8,991 nucleotides of DNA from Thermodesulfobacteriota bacterium. Its GTDB lineage: Bacteria; Desulfobacterota; BSN033; UBA1163. Numbering within the stretch: position 1 is the first letter of the stretch; each line of letters opens with the position of its first letter. The translations under genes and the position numbers were made by a program. The stretch lies in NCBI GenBank assembly GCA_030024065.1, contig JASEIE010000152.1:1-8991 (forward strand), in the 5' to 3' direction. This document shows positions 1,662 to 8,991 of this stretch, in pieces. Under the pieces are notes generated by a model. That model worked only from the letters and a program-made list of their open reading frames with translations. It was not told the DNA's origin and did not search any database.

Positions 1662-2210
1662 TTATCCGTAGGGTTTCCTAAAAAAGTCTGGACGTGGATA
1701 GTATCCCCACCACTTCAATGGATGGAGTCCAAATAGTTCTATAAACCTATATATGTCTACTTCTGTATAATCAGCAATCCAGATCTCTGTAAATTCTGTG
1801 TCGGCAAAATCTCCCTGCAAACTTTGACCTAAACATATCTCTAATCCGGATAGTGTGCAATCCATTAATTGAATAACTAAAATGGTGTCATCAGAAAACA
1901 ACCAATCTCCCTTGGCTCTCTGTTCATTTTTTCTTTCAATTGCCATGTAGATACGATCAAGTGCTTCGAAAGGATCCATGTATTCCCGGCGATTTAGAAT
2001 CCTGTCACAAACAGCGGAACCAGGATCTCTTGTCACTTTAGTCAGTTCTACCCCCATATTTAAACCATCTATTCTTTTGCATATAAAATCAGGTCGCTCG
2101 CCATTAGCCACTATAGATAACTCTTCCCCAGTGATTTCTTCATAAGCATCAAGGAAATAATGTAATCGGATTCTTTCTTCTTCCTTCTTTCCGATTTGTT
2201 GATCTGACAA
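1662..2210 (-). CDS. PD-(D/E)XK-nuclease-like conserved protein, 182 aa
   Basis: The reading frame begins with TTG at 2210, supported by AGGAG 9 bases upstream (2224-2220) and by the lack of an in-frame ATG before residue 52. Residues ERPDFIC (38-44), then GVELTK (53-58), resemble the Asp-strand-Glu-x-(x)-Lys arrangement of PD-(D/E)XK nucleases, with D41 and E55 as candidate metal ligands and K58 one position off the classical spacing. Later features are TILVIQL, FTEIWIADY and a C-terminal FGLHPLKWWGYY...KPYG block that I recall from a conserved uncharacterised family. No signal peptide or membrane segment is seen. It lies behind copy 1 of the repeated promoter module (2306-2435), giving a leader of about 95 bases. 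Nuclease activity is inferred from motif layout only; the gene itself is well supported. Confidence 0.75.
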   Translation of the reverse strand: MSDQQIGKKEEERIRLHYFLDAYEEITGEELSIVANGERPDFICKRIDGLNMGVELTKVTRDPGSAVCDRILNRREYMDPFEALDRIYMAIERKNEQRAKGDWLFSDDTILVIQLMDCTLSGLEICLGQSLQGDFADTEFTEIWIADYTEVDIYRFIELFGLHPLKWWGYYPRPDFFRKPYG

Positions 2211-2305: not shown

Positions 2306-2435
2306 TGCACAGAATATACCACGGGGAGGATTATGTCAACGATTAAAAACGTGTCCGTGACCGTGATCCGTGTCCGGAGTTTAAAAAATGAAAAGAGCGA
2401 AGGGCACAGAGCATGGCGCTAAATTCGTGTCCGTG
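2306..2435 (-). repeat. Promoter-module repeat, copy 1 (upstream of the PD-(D/E)XK-like gene)
   Basis: This segment shares TGCACAGAATATACCACGG and the following TGTCAA block with copies 2 and 3. Its distal part (about 2382-2435, ending CTAAATTCGTGTCCGTG) matches 3408-3460 of copy 2. Between them are degenerate GTGTCCGTGACCGTGATCC repeats. It lacks the MKQFNL leader found in copies 2 and 3. Confidence 0.8.
2313..2339 (-). promoter_or_regulatory. Sigma-70-like promoter of module copy 1
   Basis: Minus strand: TTGACA (2339-2334), 15-base spacer, TGG-TATATT with the -10 hexamer at 2318-2313. The TGn before it suggests an extended -10. The spacer is short, but a 17-base reading (TATTCT) is also possible. 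The same geometry occurs in two other places. It points at the gene starting at 2210. Confidence 0.6.
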
Positions 2436-2437
2436 TC

Positions 2438-2456
2438 CCTACCTGCGGTAGGCAGG
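2438..2456. repeat. Small nested palindrome (CCTACC/GGTAGG)
   Basis: CCTACC (2438-2443) pairs with GGTAGG (2447-2452), and the shifted pair CCTGC (2442-2446) with GCAGG (2452-2456), so alternative hairpins form. This is a common dispersed REP-like unit. It lies between hepT and module copy 1, followed by GTTAGGCGTAAGGAGTGAAG-type degenerate repeats (2484-2510). Nothing coding is seen in 2220-2530. Confidence 0.5.
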
Positions 2457-2530
2457 CATGGAGCATAGCGTGATTCTAAGACTGCAAGGCGTTAGGCGTA
2501 AGGAGTGAAGAATAACCGGTAACAAGTTAC

Positions 2531-2878
2531 TTAGGAACTTGTATATTCTTTGCCAAGAATGTCGGTAATCTTACGTTTCAGCTCAGGGGCTTCCTGAGTG
2601 GCTGCAACCCACACAATAGACCATTCCACAGCGAAGTAGGCATGAACTGCTATGTTTCGAAACCCTATAATATCTTCCCATTCAATTTCAGGATGTTTAT
2701 CGCAAAACTCTTTGGAAAGGCGAGAAGCCGCCTCACCGATGATCATTAATTTCTGGAGAACAGCACTTTGCAACAGCTCGTTTCGGAGGAAAGTATTTTG
2801 TCCAACGTCTACGAGAAATCTTTGGATGGCATCGGCGGCTTCAATAATATCTGTTAAATACAGTTCTTCACGGCGCAT
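2531..2878 (-). CDS. hepT: HepT-like HEPN toxin (putative RNase), 115 aa
   Basis: This is the toxin half of a HEPN/MNT toxin-antitoxin pair. From ATG at 2878 the protein is 115 residues, all helical in pattern. It carries RNIAVHAY at 74-81, the R-x4-H-x-Y motif that forms the RNase site of HepT toxins (R74, H79). In the characterised Shewanella pair, the motif tyrosine is where MntA adds AMP (Y81 here). A longer reading starting with TTG at 2905 is possible, but the ATG at 2878 gives a classic start MRREELYLTDI and an 11-base overlap with the mntA stop at 2868, implying translational coupling. An AAGG lies just upstream of the ATG. The catalytic residues are intact, so the toxin is probably functional. 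Its target RNA cannot be told from sequence. Confidence 0.9.
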   Translation of the reverse strand: MRREELYLTDIIEAADAIQRFLVDVGQNTFLRNELLQSAVLQKLMIIGEAASRLSKEFCDKHPEIEWEDIIGFRNIAVHAYFAVEWSIVWVAATQEAPELKRKITDILGKEYTSS

Positions 2879-3173
2879 AAAGCACCTTCGCGCTGGAAAT
2901 GACAATCTCTCGGATTTTGGGTTTCAACCCTCCTTTTGGAACCAGATCCACCGGTCGATTTAGAATCGCTGAAAGCTCTCTTTGCATTCTGGACAGCGTC
3001 ACAAAACCAATCTGTGCTTCTGGCTCAAATTCAACTAAAAGATCAATGTCGCTATCTGTTTTGAAATCTTCACCAAGGGCTGAGCCAAAAATAGAGAGTT
3101 CTTTCACTCGATATCGTTGGCACAGTTTCTTCATCGCCTTTAATGCATCCGGAGCTAAATCCATATTTGCCAT
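2868..3173 (-). CDS. mntA: MntA-like minimal nucleotidyltransferase antitoxin, 101 aa
   Basis: This is a small DNA-polymerase-beta-like nucleotidyltransferase (MNT) and the antitoxin partner of the overlapping hepT. The signature G30-S31-x10-D42-x-D44 (FGSALGEDFKTDSDIDLL) is complete. It is followed by a strand with E48, and the C-terminal NRPVDLVPKGGLKPKIRE is typical of short MNT proteins. In known pairs MntA neutralises HepT by transferring AMP to its active-site tyrosine. I prefer ATG at 3173 because GGTG lies 6 bases upstream; GTG at 3182 would add three residues. The order antitoxin then toxin, overlapping by 11 bases, is as expected. Transcription probably starts at module copy 2, giving a leader of about 155 bases with a possible small frame at 3270-3217. 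Confidence 0.9.
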   Translation of the reverse strand: MANMDLAPDALKAMKKLCQRYRVKELSIFGSALGEDFKTDSDIDLLVEFEPEAQIGFVTLSRMQRELSAILNRPVDLVPKGGLKPKIREIVISSAKVLYAP

Positions 3174-3216
3174 TCTTATCACCAGATTAGAATTTTATTG
3201 CTCTTTTAGAGCTCTT

Positions 3217-3270
3217 TTAAGGTAAATAGAGGGCGGTTGGGACGTTGTTGACTAAGTTGAATTGTTTCAT
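3217..3270 (-). other. Candidate leader ORF of 17 codons (MKQFNL type) before mntA
   Basis: Minus from ATG 3270 reads MKQFNLVNNVPTALYLP and stops at 3219-3217, 43 bases before mntA. The first 11 residues match the leader frame ahead of uxaC with one replacement (V/F) and two synonymous changes. The only Shine-Dalgarno-like sequence (GGAGAGG) abuts the ATG, so translation is uncertain. The conservation could simply reflect repeat ancestry. Confidence 0.35.
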
Positions 3271-3460
3271 CCTCTCCAAAGCCCCCTCTACCTAAACGCA
3301 TTGATATTTCCTTTTGTGTCTCACCTGGTGCACAGAATATACCAAGGGTAGGTTTATGTCAAGATTAAACACCGTAAGGCGTGAAGAGTGAGGCGTGAGG
3401 TGTAAACTCTAAAATGAAAATAAAGATTGTACAGAGTATAGAACTAAATTCGTGTCCGTG
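3239..3460 (-). repeat. Promoter-module repeat, copy 2 (upstream of mntA-hepT)
   Basis: Bases 3239-3370 align with 4988-5120 (copy 3) at roughly four bases in five, from GGGACGTTGTTGA through the promoter. Bases 3408-3460 align with the distal part of copy 1 (2382-2435). Between them is a degenerate GTAAGGCGTGAAGAGTGAGG run (3373-3405). Copy 2 therefore links the other two and may be nearest to the complete element. It fills the gap between mntA and the uxaC 3' end; no gene is seen in 3271-3514. Confidence 0.8.
3336..3362 (-). promoter_or_regulatory. Sigma-70-like promoter of module copy 2
   Basis: Minus strand: TTGACA (3362-3357), 15 bases, then TTGG-TATATT with the -10 hexamer at 3341-3336, followed by CTGTGCACC. 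It is the same geometry as copies 1 and 3. The expected transcript starts near 3329 and reads a leader of about 155 bases into mntA. Confidence 0.6.
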
Positions 3461-3514
3461 ACCAAAACTTTAAAAATACACAAAGGGCGGAGAGCTATCG
3501 GCAGAGCGTGTCTG

Positions 3515-4939
3515 TTACAGCATATAAGCTTTCTTGGTCAGGCGGTAGGCCAGATCCACAACCATCTCCTGAGCGTCTTCGAGATCCACAATCCCCCGCG
3601 TCACCAATCCTGCGACCCAGTTTGCACTGATGCGACGCCAGAGATCGTGTCGTGCTGGTATAGAGGCAAAGGCCCGTGTATCATCATTGAACCCTGCCGT
3701 GTTCTGAATCCCTGCCGTCTCCATGACCTGGTCGAAGTAGCGCTTCATTCCGTTGATGCTATCAAAAAACCACCACGGCGGACCGAGCTTGATGGCTGGA
3801 TAGTGACCGGCAAGTGGGGCCAACTCACGTCCATAAGTCGATTCATCCAACGTGAAAAGTATCAATTTAAGCCGGAGATCATTTCCATACTGATTCAGGA
3901 GGGGCCTTAAGTTACGGGTGAACTCGCTCTGCCCAGGGATGTCGGCTCCCTTATCAGTCCCGAAGCGCTTGTAGAGGAGTTCATTGTAATCGCGGACAGA
4001 GCCAATATGAAGTTGCATGACCAAACCATCCTCAAGACTCATCCGGGCGAATTCCATGATCATGTGAGCGGTGAATCGTTGCGCATCGGCAGCGGTCGCA
4101 CTTCCCTGCAACGCGCGCAGGAAGATCGCCTCTGCTTCGGATAAGCTCAACTCCTCGGTAAAAGCCGACTCAGCCGCATGATCGGTTGCCGCGGCACCCA
4201 TCGACTTGAAGAAACTGCGGCGATCTTTGAGGGCGGTGATGAACTTCGAATACGAATCGACAGAAATCCCGCTCACTTGACTCAGGGCATCTATATTTTC
4301 TCGCCAGCGGGGATTCCGCAGGTTTGTCACACCGTCCGGACGGAATGTGGGACGAATGTTCCCGTCCCATCCCGATTTGCGGATCTGCTGATGATAGAGA
4401 AGCGGGTCAGTTGCCGCATCCGTGGTGCAAAGCACCTCAATGTTGAAACGTTTAAAGAGTGCACGGGGCCGAAATTCGGCAGAAGCAAGCTTCGTTTCAA
4501 TTTGATCATAGATGGCCCTTGCCGTTTTTGAACTCAATTTCTCTTCGATCCCGAAGACAAAATAGAGCTCGTGAGCCAACCATGCGCCAGTCGGGGTCCC
4601 GCGAAACATGTGGAAGTGATCGGCGAAGATTTGCCAGATTTTCCGATGATCCCTCTCTACCGGACCACCGTCAACCCTTGGAACCCCCAGATGTTCGAGA
4701 GGGATACCCTGTGAATAGAGCATGCGGAAAACGTAATGATCCGGAATGATGAAGAGGTCGGCAGCAGAACCGAAAGAAGCCTTCTCATCCGCCAGGAGTC
4801 GAGGGTCCACATGGCCGTGGGGGCTGATGATCGGCAGGTGGGCCACCGATTTGTATAGGTTCATTGCAACTTTTCTTTGAGAGGGATCTGGGTCAAAGTA
4901 ACGATCTTCCGGCAAGTACCATTTCGAATCATCTTTCAT
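3515..4939 (-). CDS. uxaC: Glucuronate (uronate) isomerase UxaC
   Basis: A full-length 474-residue member of the UxaC family (EC 5.3.1.12). It interconverts glucuronate with fructuronate, or galacturonate with tagaturonate, in the cytoplasm. Recognisable marks are the metal-binding SPHGHVDP (H41, H43), the LHELYFVFGI region, EVLCTTDAATDPL, LQLHIGSVRDYN, and C-terminal AGFNDDTRAF followed by SIPARHDLWRR. An AAGGAGG lies 8 bases before ATG 4939. No uxuA, uxuB, kdgK, kdgA or uronate transporter is nearby, so the enzyme is isolated from its pathway. It is GC-richer than the genes at 277-2210 and lies between module copies 2 and 3, suggesting it arrived separately. The ATG overlaps the stop of a candidate leader frame as ATGA. 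Confidence 0.97.
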   Translation of the reverse strand: MKDDSKWYLPEDRYFDPDPSQRKVAMNLYKSVAHLPIISPHGHVDPRLLADEKASFGSAADLFIIPDHYVFRMLYSQGIPLEHLGVPRVDGGPVERDHRKIWQIFADHFHMFRGTPTGAWLAHELYFVFGIEEKLSSKTARAIYDQIETKLASAEFRPRALFKRFNIEVLCTTDAATDPLLYHQQIRKSGWDGNIRPTFRPDGVTNLRNPRWRENIDALSQVSGISVDSYSKFITALKDRRSFFKSMGAAATDHAAESAFTEELSLSEAEAIFLRALQGSATAADAQRFTAHMIMEFARMSLEDGLVMQLHIGSVRDYNELLYKRFGTDKGADIPGQSEFTRNLRPLLNQYGNDLRLKLILFTLDESTYGRELAPLAGHYPAIKLGPPWWFFDSINGMKRYFDQVMETAGIQNTAGFNDDTRAFASIPARHDLWRRISANWVAGLVTRGIVDLEDAQEMVVDLAYRLTKKAYML

Positions 4940-5019
4940 CTTCGCTCCCTCCTTCTATCATCCTTGGTGGGAGAGGTGAGGAGAGAAGGGACGTTGTTGA
5001 ATAAGTTGAATTGCTTCAT
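4936..5019 (-). other. Candidate 27-codon leader ORF overlapping the uxaC start (ATGA)
   Basis: Minus from ATG 5019 reads MKQFNLFNNVPSLLTSP, then a charged tail ending RRRERR. Its TGA stop (4938-4936) overlaps the uxaC ATG (4939-4937) in an ATGA junction. The uxaC ribosome binding site lies inside its last codons, an arrangement suited to translational coupling. Pyrimidine runs CTTCTCTCCTC and CTCTCCC in the frame could pair with the purine-rich uxaC ribosome binding site. Its own Shine-Dalgarno sequence (GAGAGG) abuts the ATG, which weakens the case. Confidence 0.4.
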
Positions 5020-5146
5020 CCTCTCAAGCACCCGCCACCCCGAACGTATTAATATTTCTCTTTTCGCTTCACTGGGTGCACAGAATATACCACGGGGAGG
5101 TTTGTGTCAACAATTTAAAACGTGCTGTGATCGTGATTCGTGTCCG
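4988..5146 (-). repeat. Promoter-module repeat, copy 3 (upstream of uxaC)
   Basis: It aligns with copy 2 from GGGACGTTGTTGA (4988) through the promoter block, and with copy 1 in the promoter and the following CGTGATTCGTGTCCG tract. It is followed by a degenerate GTAAGGCGCGAAGCGTTAGGAG run (5188-5210). Together with copy 2 it brackets uxaC in direct orientation, about 1.75 kb apart. Confidence 0.8.
5084..5110 (-). promoter_or_regulatory. Sigma-70-like promoter of module copy 3, uxaC promoter
   Basis: Minus strand: TTGACA (5110-5105), 15 bases, then TGG-TATATT with the -10 hexamer at 5089-5084, followed by CTGTGCACC. It predicts a uxaC transcript starting near 5077 with a leader of about 138 bases. 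No uronate-regulator (UxuR/ExuR/KdgR-type) operator is recognised. Confidence 0.65.
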
Positions 5147-5297: not shown

Positions 5298-5334
5298 TGA
5301 TATGCACGAATATGAATCAACGGAAGGTGATTGT

Positions 5335-5574
5335 ATGTCCTGGGTCAGAAAAAGATGCCACCGTGCTGGGTTCGGCATCCTACTCATCGTGATCGGACTG
5401 CTGTGGTTTGGTCAGAGGGCTGGATGGTTCTCTTTAGAAATCTTCGGCCCATTAGTCCTATTAACTCTTGGTCTATGGATGATCGCCACTTCATACCTTT
5501 ACAAACGGTGGGCTCCTCCTTGGTGCCCTGCCCATTGCTCAAAAAATTGGTGGAAAGGAGGGAAATTGTCGTGA
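5335..5574 (+). CDS. Small two-helix membrane protein, LiaI/LiaF-like (DUF5668-type), 79 aa
   Basis: From ATG 5335 the product is 79 residues: a basic N-terminus (MSWVRKRCHR), a first membrane helix (about 12-27, GFGILLIVIGLLWF), a short loop with Gly and Trp, a second helix (about 35-54) and a basic, Cys/Trp-containing tail. The G-I-L-L-I-x-I-G-L-L-W-F helix followed by a loop and a second helix is the pattern of LiaI-LiaF-like transmembrane regions (DUF5668). AAGGTGAT lies 3-4 bases before the chosen ATG. It is one of only two plus-strand genes, and the next gene starts across its stop codon. Function is unknown; in this family such proteins are linked to envelope-stress sensing, which is inference here. 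Confidence 0.75.
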   Translation: MSWVRKRCHRAGFGILLIVIGLLWFGQRAGWFSLEIFGPLVLLTLGLWMIATSYLYKRWAPPWCPAHCSKNWWKGGKLS

Positions 5575-5999
5575 TGGGAGAGATATTAAGACAATATACA
5601 GAAGCTCGTATTAACGAAAGATTGCATTTGTTCCTACAATTTCCTGATCTGAGGAGATCTTTTCAAGAGATTGACCGCAAAGATCTGGCTTTTCAGAAAG
5701 CATCCACATCCTTACGTGGAGAAGAGCATACCAAGGAATCTTTAATTGATGCAGACATATTCTTCAGAAAATCTCATCTCACCCCTCTTGGCTCTTCGGG
5801 CCATAGGCCCTATGGGCCGGAGGCCAAAGAGGGGAAATTATTATCTTTCGTAAAGGGAAGGAGTGAAGGAAGGATTTTTCAACGAATCATCGAGATAAGA
5901 AATAGGATCAGGTCTTGCATTAACACATTTCTAAAGCGTTCTTCGAAATACGATGTTGCGAGACCTAATTTATGTCACCCTGAAACAAGTTCAGGGTGA
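5574..5999 (+). CDS. Unrecognised ORF of 141 aa containing an in-frame palindrome
   Basis: The frame starts at ATG 5574, sharing one base with the preceding TGA (TGATG), or at GTG 5571 in a GTGA overlap. AAGGAGGG lies 8 bases before the GTG, so translation is plausible and coupled to the membrane-protein gene. The N-terminal part (MGEILRQYTEARINERLH) is charged and helical. I do not recognise a family. Two palindromes lie within the frame. A 54-base stretch at 5781-5834 reads through as 18 codons (TPLGSSGHRPYGPEAKEG), and the final codons with the stop fall in the 5972-6002 hairpin. The native C-terminus may therefore have been replaced by inserted repeat DNA. Confidence is moderate that it is expressed and low that its whole length is native. 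Confidence 0.5.
   Translation: MGEILRQYTEARINERLHLFLQFPDLRRSFQEIDRKDLAFQKASTSLRGEEHTKESLIDADIFFRKSHLTPLGSSGHRPYGPEAKEGKLLSFVKGRSEGRIFQRIIEIRNRIRSCINTFLKRSSKYDVARPNLCHPETSSG
5782..5834. repeat. Long imperfect palindrome (53 nt) inside the 5574-5999 ORF
   Basis: CCCCTCTT...AAGAGGGG form the outer stem, GGC/GCC follows across a one-base bulge, and CGGGCCATAG/CTATGGGCCGG form the inner stem around GCC. The foldback has about 20 pairs with small bulges. It looks like a mobile palindromic (REP or MITE-like) element. With the base before it, it occupies 54 nt, a multiple of three, and leaves the reading frame open. Confidence 0.7.
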
Positions 6000-6002
6000 C
6001 AT
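5972..6002. terminator. Perfect 13-bp hairpin at the end of the plus-strand operon
   Basis: ATGTCACCCTGAA (5972-5984) and TTCAGGGTGACAT (5990-6002) pair perfectly around ACAAG. It lies between convergent units (plus-strand genes ending at 5999 and the minus-strand GNAT gene ending at 6067), where a bidirectional terminator is expected. There is no proper T run. The GTCACCCTGAA..TTCAGGGTGAC palindrome is also a widely dispersed repeat in many genomes, so terminator function is probable but not certain. Confidence 0.6.
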
Positions 6003-6066
6003 TTAGGACGAGTTGGAACAGGCGCAAACATCTCACTTAATTTGTACAGGGGATTGGTAGGTGAAT

Positions 6067-7926: not shown

Positions 7927-8324
7927 TCATTTTATTTGAATAAAGCCACCTTTTTCTTTCCCGCACTTTCTTATTTTACAGACCTTGCAGTGAAGCTCTT
8001 CAAGCTTTCGCATGGGGCATCTTCACAACTTTGGCGAAACCCGCCGAAGCATTTTCATCTTTGGTGTATCTTAAGTGGACATCCTTTTTGTATTCATCCC
8101 CACCCTTGTAGACGGGGCATCCTGCGAAGGCGGGTAATTGAAAATACGCTCTCCGTTGGATAAACAACCCTCACAATTAATATCTTCAGGTTTGATCTCA
8201 ACTTAAATAGCTTCGACTACTTTTGAGCCACTTCAGCTCTTTTTTGATTATCGTTCTTTTTTGTCGCCAAGAATGAGCCACATTCATCACAACCCAACCC
8301 ACAAAACGCAATCATTTCTTTCAA
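7927..8324 (-). pseudogene. Remnant of a DUF3795 cysteine-rich gene
   Basis: From a TTG at 8324, with GGAGG about 9 bases upstream, the frame reads LKEMIAFCGLGCDECGSF, the characteristic DUF3795 N-terminus, through KRAEVAQK. It then stops at TAG (8219-8217), where the family usually has Trp. After SKLFK the homology moves by one base, so EIKPEDINCEGCLSNGER (8199 onward, ending FNY at 8134) is in another frame. At 8135 begins a 97-base segment with inverted ends. Beyond it, two overlapping frames still show family-like cysteine motifs: CEDAPCESLKSF (8027-7992) and CKVCKIRKCGKEKGG (7989-7945). The gene thus carries a nonsense codon, a one-base deletion and an insertion, and cannot give a full DUF3795 protein. 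The first 35 codons could still be translated. Confidence 0.75.
8039..8135. repeat. 97-bp segment with inverted ends interrupting the DUF3795 remnant (MITE-like)
   Basis: ACCCGCCGAAGCA (8039-8051) and TGCGAAGGCGGGT (8123-8135) are imperfect inverted repeats (10 of 13 pairs). The right end coincides with the point where DUF3795 similarity stops (codon ending at 8134). No transposase is encoded. It could be a miniature inverted-repeat element or a REP pair. Confidence 0.4.
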
Positions 8325-8466
8325 ATCTGTATTCCTCCTACTAAAATAATTAAATTCTCGAAATTTGAATACCGTATTACCGATGCCTGACCCCAAAAGC
8401 CTGGTAAGAACGTTTCCTTTCAGGTCTATCAGTAAAACTTACTAATGGCGTAAGGGAAAAATCTCC
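8325..8466. other. Intergenic region upstream of the DUF3795 remnant
   Basis: An AT-rich spacer with no gene. It holds the GGAGG of the DUF3795 remnant (near 8334-8339), and a tract GATGCCTGACCCCAAAAGCC (8381-8400) that resembles the REP-like sequence near 211-227. No clear promoter or terminator is seen. Confidence 0.4.
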
Positions 8467-8991
8467 CTATGGTTCGATCTTCGTCCCCAACACTTTCAGG
8501 AACTTCGCCAGCCACTCAGGATGGGCTGGCCAGGCAGGTGCGGTAACAAGGTTGCCATCCACATGAGCCTGATCCACCGGTATGTCAACATACTTGCCAC
8601 CCGCAGTTTTCACATCGAGTCCCACTGCTGGATAAGCTGAACACGCTTTGCCTGCAATCACCCCTGCCGCTGCCAGTACTTGCGCGCCATGGCAAATGGC
8701 CGCAATCGGTTTATTTGTTTTGGCAAAGTGACGCACCGCCTCAAGTACCTTCTCGTTCAGACGAATGTATTCCGGCGCGCGTCCACCAGGGATCACCAAT
8801 GCATCGTAAGTTTCCGGCTTGACTTCATCAAATGTTGCGTTCAGTGTGAAGTTGTGGCCCGGTTTCTCGCTGTATGTCTGATCTCCCTCAAAATCATGGA
8901 TCGCTGTCCGAACCCTTTCTCCAGCCTTCTTCCCAGGACAAACAGCATGGACAGTGTGCCCAACCATCAGCAATGCCTGAAAAGGCACCAT
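8467..8991 (-). CDS. DJ-1/PfpI family protein, main part (N-terminus at 112-1)
   Basis: A single-domain DJ-1/PfpI (class I glutamine amidotransferase-like) protein. In full-length numbering the nucleophile elbow is [10 protein letters not shown] with C119 followed by H120, and the conserved glutamate is E15, encoded at the other window end. [15 protein letters not shown] and the C-terminal [16 protein letters not shown] strand-helix block are typical. Relatives are annotated as intracellular protease I, general-stress or glyoxal/methylglyoxal-detoxifying (deglycase) proteins; which applies is not visible. The linear window makes the gene appear to begin at ATG 8991 (MVPFQALL), but that is residue 20 of the true protein; the start is ATG 112. 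It is GC-richer than the 277-2210 block. It lies downstream of the TIR-like gene on the circle, 164 bases away. Confidence 0.95.
8937..8991. repeat. Terminal direct repeat, right copy (circle overlap)
   Basis: Identical to 1-55. It lies within the pfpI coding region; removing one copy restores an uninterrupted pfpI frame. Confidence 0.95.

Follow-up and report, generated by a model that had tools for sequence, protein, structure and literature searches.

Most of what is known about mobile promoters comes from statistical surveys of genome sequences. Under the names of mobile promoters and promoter propagation, Matus-Garcia in 2012 and van Passel in 2014 reportedly described near-identical promoter-bearing sequences located before non-homologous genes. 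Two further groups of elements are close to the case considered here. TIRtrons are Y1 transposase genes with flanking terminal inverted repeats (TIRs), some of them forming dispersed families (PMC3733652, PMC6006769), and certain insertion sequences have outward promoters, such that a mobile piece of DNA brings a promoter to its neighbor (PMC9208149).

The window, that is, the whole stretch of 8,991 nt that was analyzed, carries a promoter module that can be set against the available parts of these descriptions. As with mobile promoters, a near-identical promoter-bearing sequence stands before non-homologous genes; unlike them, the block found here ends near a transposase-type TIR, and few copies are known. 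As in TIRtron or TIRYT families, the TIR is found on both sides of a Y1 transposase gene, whose C-terminal HTH match is weak, and is also dispersed alone, but the module's TIR is one-sided, it agrees with the GGGGWSAS motif in 6 of 8 letters at best, and the promoter part is absent at the transposase loci inspected. The likeness to insertion sequences with outward promoters would lie in a mobile piece carrying a promoter to its neighbor, whereas a block of 134 nt cannot accommodate a transposase gene. In the portions of the literature examined we met no account of a promoter joined to a TIRYT-type repeat, and the association of a mobile promoter with such a terminal repeat appears to be the new point.

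Results

Three copies of a promoter core in the window

The sequence-only reading of this DNA claimed one promoter module repeated on the minus strand before three unrelated units. Three exact sites, TTGACA-N15-TATATTCTGTGCA, each aimed at the next gene, bear this out.

2306-2339, minus strand: promoter core copy 1, exact match, facing the ORF at 1662-2210 (minus)
3329-3362, minus strand: promoter core copy 2, exact match, facing mntA-hepT
5077-5110, minus strand: promoter core copy 3, exact match, facing uxaC
1662-2210, minus strand: 182-aa ORF behind copy 1, without family match, such that the PD-(D/E)XK likeness of the sequence-only reading gained no confirmation
2868-3182, minus strand: mntA-like nucleotidyltransferase gene behind copy 2, ATG at 3173 (Pfam PF01909, E 6.9e-14)
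2531-2905, minus strand: hepT-like gene (Pfam PF01934, E 1.3e-25; NCBIfam HepT match under cut-off)
3515-4939, minus strand: uxaC, glucuronate isomerase, behind copy 3 (Pfam PF02614, E 1.6e-89)

From TTGACA to TATATT the sites span 2313-2339, 3336-3362 and 5084-5110, the longer spans listed above running to the end of CTGTGCA, and CTGTGCAYC comes directly after TATATT in all three copies. With up to three mismatches allowed, the whole window holds these three core sites and no others, and 200 dinucleotide shuffles of the window hold none. The three copies of the 8.9-kb window all lie inside 2.8 kb of one contig, with about 100 (copy 1), 160 (copy 2) and 145 nt (copy 3) between TATATT and the start codon. 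The mntA-like protein matches NCBIfam MntA under the cut-off and receives from PADLOC the label PDC-S09 only.

Elsewhere in the window, a 205-aa ORF (277-894) matched nothing in Pfam, NCBIfam or PADLOC, and a hairpin, TGTCACCCTGAA...TTCAGGGTGACA, was seen by eye between ORFs at about 5972-6003. The window ends carry a 55-nt exact direct repeat (1-55 and 8937-8991); given this repeat and a PfpI frame that is whole across the join, the contig probably represents a circle of 8,936 bp or else a tandem unit. Assemblers also commonly use k-mers of 55. No replication gene was recognized among the window ORFs inspected.

Homologous copies in three related genomes

The exact pattern was sought in a genome collection with one genome per species (84,980 species, 257 Gb), which was scanned once. 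It occurred in five stretches, all from MAGs, with the titles Thermodesulfobacteriota, Desulfobacteraceae, Deltaproteobacteria (two) and Geobacteraceae. Three of the five are homologous, with spacer and flanking DNA as in the window: L002 in genome G001, L004 in G002 and L005 in G003. Together with window copies 1-3 they form a homologous set of six. The remaining two, L003 and L006, were dropped as homologues, their spacers and flanks being unrelated despite identical boxes; small ORFs overlie both sites, the one at L003 beginning at the TTG of TTGACA. Also set aside was L001, the sole viral_contigs match, which lies inside a 749-codon ORF, has an unrelated spacer and was taken as chance. A distant search of plasmids and phages gave no match.

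All six homologous copies are aimed at the next gene. The sequence-only reading had named copies lying inside genes or randomly oriented as what would speak against it; the three homologous copies elsewhere are intergenic, outside ORFs of at least 60 aa, and co-oriented with the next gene. Across the six, one ORF of at least 60 aa overlies a core site, a 102-aa frame read from the other strand at copy 3, for which we found no evidence of a real gene.

The description of the flanks as diverging in the sequence-only reading is correct in part. In an ungapped comparison of the six homologous copies, the 15-nt spacer is better kept (mean pairwise identity 82%) than the flanking zones (29-57%); the 100% identity of the hexamers is a product of the search, which required the boxes. 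The window copies nevertheless share longer stretches, namely about 125 nt at 82% between copies 2 and 3 (3239-3362 versus 4988-5110), 71 nt at 89% between copies 1 and 3 (2306-2376 versus 5077-5146), and 168 nt at 73% between copies 1 and 2.

Genomes G001, G002 and G003 fall within a single order, for which the search covered 17 genomes. Allowing up to three mismatches, spacer letters included, gave three sites, one in each of G001-G003 and all with 0 mismatches; imperfect relatives with 1-3 mismatches were absent from the 17 genomes. Because the homologous site is found in 3/17 order genomes, one each, active spreading is not evident, the 3/17 figure resting on MAGs for which completeness is not given. 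At the level of the phylum, the promoter half of the block (see below), used as query, matched 2 of 395 sampled genomes, G001 and G003, and the class search found 7 of 23, those outside G001-G003 with TIR matches only. When the spacer was left free in the five genomes behind the collection matches (up to three mismatches), four of the five yielded seven more sites, each with 2-3 mismatches; these were set aside as unrelated, by their spacers alone.

A 134-nt block in different surroundings

Similarity between copy 2 and its counterparts in G001 and G002 takes the form of a block with visible ends, of which copy 3 has a diverged version. The sequence-only reading had overlooked this longer block and the inverted repeat at its end.

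3229-3362, minus strand: 134-nt block of copy 2, 131/134 identical to L002 (G001) and to L004 (G002) each
4988-5110, minus strand: diverged block at copy 3, about 82% identical to copy 2, similarity stopping at the TIR

The block common to copy 2, L002 and L004 runs from TTGACA through CGCCCTC, the three pairs being identical at 131, 131 and 130 of 134 positions, and the three blocks have different flanks and different downstream genes. Between L004 and copy 2 both flanks are unrelated, homology beginning at the promoter and stopping after 134 nt. L005 has the promoter part only, which is likewise the part that copy 1 has in common. Identity across the rpoB region is 93.8% between G001 and G002 and 78-83% between G003 and the other two; the G001 and G002 blocks, at 97%, are thus more alike than this conserved gene, though differently placed.

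Rfam, run on the window and the three loci, reported nothing within the block (rRNA in L002 only), and the blocks of copies 2 and 3, folded as DNA on both strands, did no better than shuffles (z -0.02 to 1.14). In an alignment folding of four blocks, none of 36 pairs showed two-sided change, and we therefore do not claim a conserved leader RNA. A small ORF in the copy 2 leader, after AAGGA, was rejected, copy 3 being without the ATG and having a one-base gap. Searches for empty sites with the G001 and G002 loci found no relative carrying both flanks, and no target duplication was definable.

Genes behind the copies and their orthologues

The L002 block lies upstream of an M48 peptidase gene and the L005 promoter part upstream of a DUF3795 gene. 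The gene downstream of the L004 block is a 5´-truncated PfpI gene; its similarity to orthologues of six genomes begins at codon 61, and this placement of the module does not look like selected use. The genes behind the six copies have no evident common function.

For uxaC, orthologues were found in 5 of the 17 order genomes, with 72-75% aa identity, and the module is absent upstream of all five. Four of them are located about 10-140 nt behind an ORF resembling D-2-hydroxyacid dehydrogenase (named by eye), and the fifth follows a different ORF. The ORF next upstream of uxaC in the window (5302-5574) is on the other strand, with the module in between. Homologues of mntA, present in 14 of the 17 genomes at 45% identity at best, are included in the genome-wide pattern search. 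The ORF at 1662-2210 gave no homologue in the 17 genomes, in a search run without a positive control. Separately, the window holds a DUF3795-like remnant in two pieces (7944-8336), named by its DNA similarity to L005 (87% and 83% identity) and interrupted or partly deleted. Unlike L005, it has no module copy, the likeness fading short of the module's place.

Dispersed repeats on both sides of the core

The promoter core is positioned between two kinds of dispersed repeat, a TIR downstream and degenerate arrays upstream.

3239-3262, plus strand: 24-nt TIR GGGACGTTGTTGACTAAGTTGAAT, near the downstream end of the copy 2 block, inverse orientation
4988-5011, plus strand: TIR GGGACGTTGTTGACTAAGTTGAAT with one mismatch, at the downstream end of the copy 3 block
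2350-2376, minus strand: hexamer-like array upstream of copy 1, resembling a stretch upstream of copy 3
3373-3400, minus strand: heptamer-like array upstream of copy 2 (Tandem Repeats Finder)
5111-5146, minus strand: GGACACG-type stretch upstream of copy 3, common to copy 1

The TIR is found downstream of the core in four of the six copies, copy 1 and L005 being without it, and at that end of the block only. A second TIR at the left block end was considered by eye and not counted, the likeness being limited to TTGTTGAC (three copies) or TTGAC (the others). Among the fetched loci, which are no census and were inspected with flanks of up to 1.5 kb, the 24-mer (up to three mismatches) forms an inverted pair at five places, two in G001, two in G012 and one in G022, and stands single at 10 others, L025 being a weak match. 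Of these pairs, those at L012 and L013 were tested for an enclosed gene. In G001, the TIRs at L012 enclose a 327-aa Y1 transposase (110-1093; PF01797, E 7.2e-11), whose C-terminal HTH matches are under the cut-offs, as is its match to the NCBIfam REP-associated tyrosine transposase. The TIRs on both sides of this gene have one mismatch each to that of window copy 2, such that G001 carries, in the same genome as a module, a nearly identical TIR flanking a Y1 transposase. The pair at L013 encloses a fragment of a Y1 transposase. We did not find the promoter part at the inspected transposase loci. The closest approach of the TIR to GGGGWSAS is GGGGACGT, in which the last two letters differ, and the window copies have 5 of 8 letters. 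One of the inverted pairs, at L030:1293-1525, delimits a 233-nt element that is too small for a transposase gene and is seemingly an internally deleted TIRtron.

On the upstream side, hexamer- or heptamer-like degenerate repeats of the GGACAC, YACGCCT and CTATGCG types were seen by eye just before five of the six copies, L004 being the exception; within the window, Tandem Repeats Finder flags the arrays of copies 1 and 2 but leaves that of copy 3 unflagged. The dispersal of the CTATGCG type is seen in short matches to this part of the G001 locus (query 730-840), listed for 13 of the 17 order genomes. Dispersed degenerate arrays also occur at L072-L085 and at about 2020-2170 of L002, a CAATTAC-like type was noted by eye in L084 and L085, and a repeat of about 63 nt upstream of the G002 module (L004:2991-3053) recurs in six or more further genomes of the order. 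Copy 2 is a mosaic, its left side shared with L005 and its right block with L002 and L004, which fits recombination at the core.

Discussion

Similar upstream sequence stands before non-homologous genes, and it is absent before the orthologues of one of these genes (uxaC, 5 of 5). We read the module as a mobile promoter cassette of a known kind, bracketed by dispersed repeats and with a mover that we infer, and give this reading a rough probability of 0.65. The sequence-only proposal of a dispersed, relocated promoter element before unrelated genes is upheld by copies that are near-identical, differ in their flanks, are co-oriented and lie outside genes. Within a single order of uncultured Desulfobacterota, a sigma-70-type promoter with some leader would have been copied to intergenic positions ahead of unrelated genes, supplying each receiving gene with a ready promoter. 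The route would most likely be a Y1 transposase acting on the TIR, or recombination between dispersed repeats. The module matches a promoter consensus and would be transcriptionally active; neither a sigma factor nor a regulator dedicated to it is required.

The alternative that survives best, which we consider unlikely, is that the promoter is not a mobile unit and that an intergenic promoter was copied passively, as segments of a repeat-rich accessory region were duplicated and its genes shuffled. Such copying would suit three copies within 2.8 kb, homology of 70-170 nt that extends into the upstream repeats, regions rich in dispersed repeats, and three related genomes with one homologous copy each. 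It sits poorly with L004 and copy 2, where homology runs from the promoter for 134 nt with unrelated DNA on either side, and with the different surroundings of the G001 and G002 blocks.

A bolder reading, also unlikely, is a non-autonomous element of a new kind, in which a promoter placed between repeat arrays and a single TIRYT repeat would be mobilized one-sidedly by a Y1 transposase. If true, such an element would bring accessory genes, and operon genes that have been displaced (uxaC, for example), under new control in this Desulfobacterota order.

We regard it as very improbable that the copies form a regulon, with a dedicated sigma factor or a regulator binding the CCTCCCCGTGG spacer and controlling the genes behind them, as the sequence-only reading had proposed from the short spacer and extended -10. 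The boxes and most spacer letters are kept in the six homologous copies, and an extended TGn precedes TATATT in six of six. However, the site can also be read as TTGACA-N17-TATTCT, with 10 of 12 consensus letters in all three window copies, and a dedicated sigma factor is not needed, given this reading as a standard 17-nt-spaced promoter; on the present sequences, TATATT at 15 nt with the extended TGn and TATTCT at 17 nt appear indistinguishable. We saw no arrangement incompatible with the ordinary sigma-70 consensus. With a single homologous copy in each of the related MAGs G001-G003, there is no sign of a regulon, the downstream genes are without evident common function, and the spacers of L003 and L006 are unrelated.

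Chance or convergence among sigma-70 promoters is the least credible account: in L003 and L006 the boxes, with unrelated spacers, stand a short way ahead of an ATG, and at equal base frequencies chance alone predicts about 1.9 exact matches in 257 Gb (by arithmetic, with no control run), close to these two, but the six homologous copies have spacer letters and mostly also flanks in common, window shuffles give none, and for these six the extended similarity already contradicts chance.

A probable mobile promoter cassette with visible block ends, presence and absence before orthologues, and a candidate mover is a concrete system for testing promoter movement, and the use of a moved promoter by displaced genes such as uxaC becomes testable. 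The little-studied TIRYT repeat families are now linked to promoters. For this order of Desulfobacterota, the locus may be a small example of how bacteria re-use a ready-made "on switch" by moving promoter DNA.
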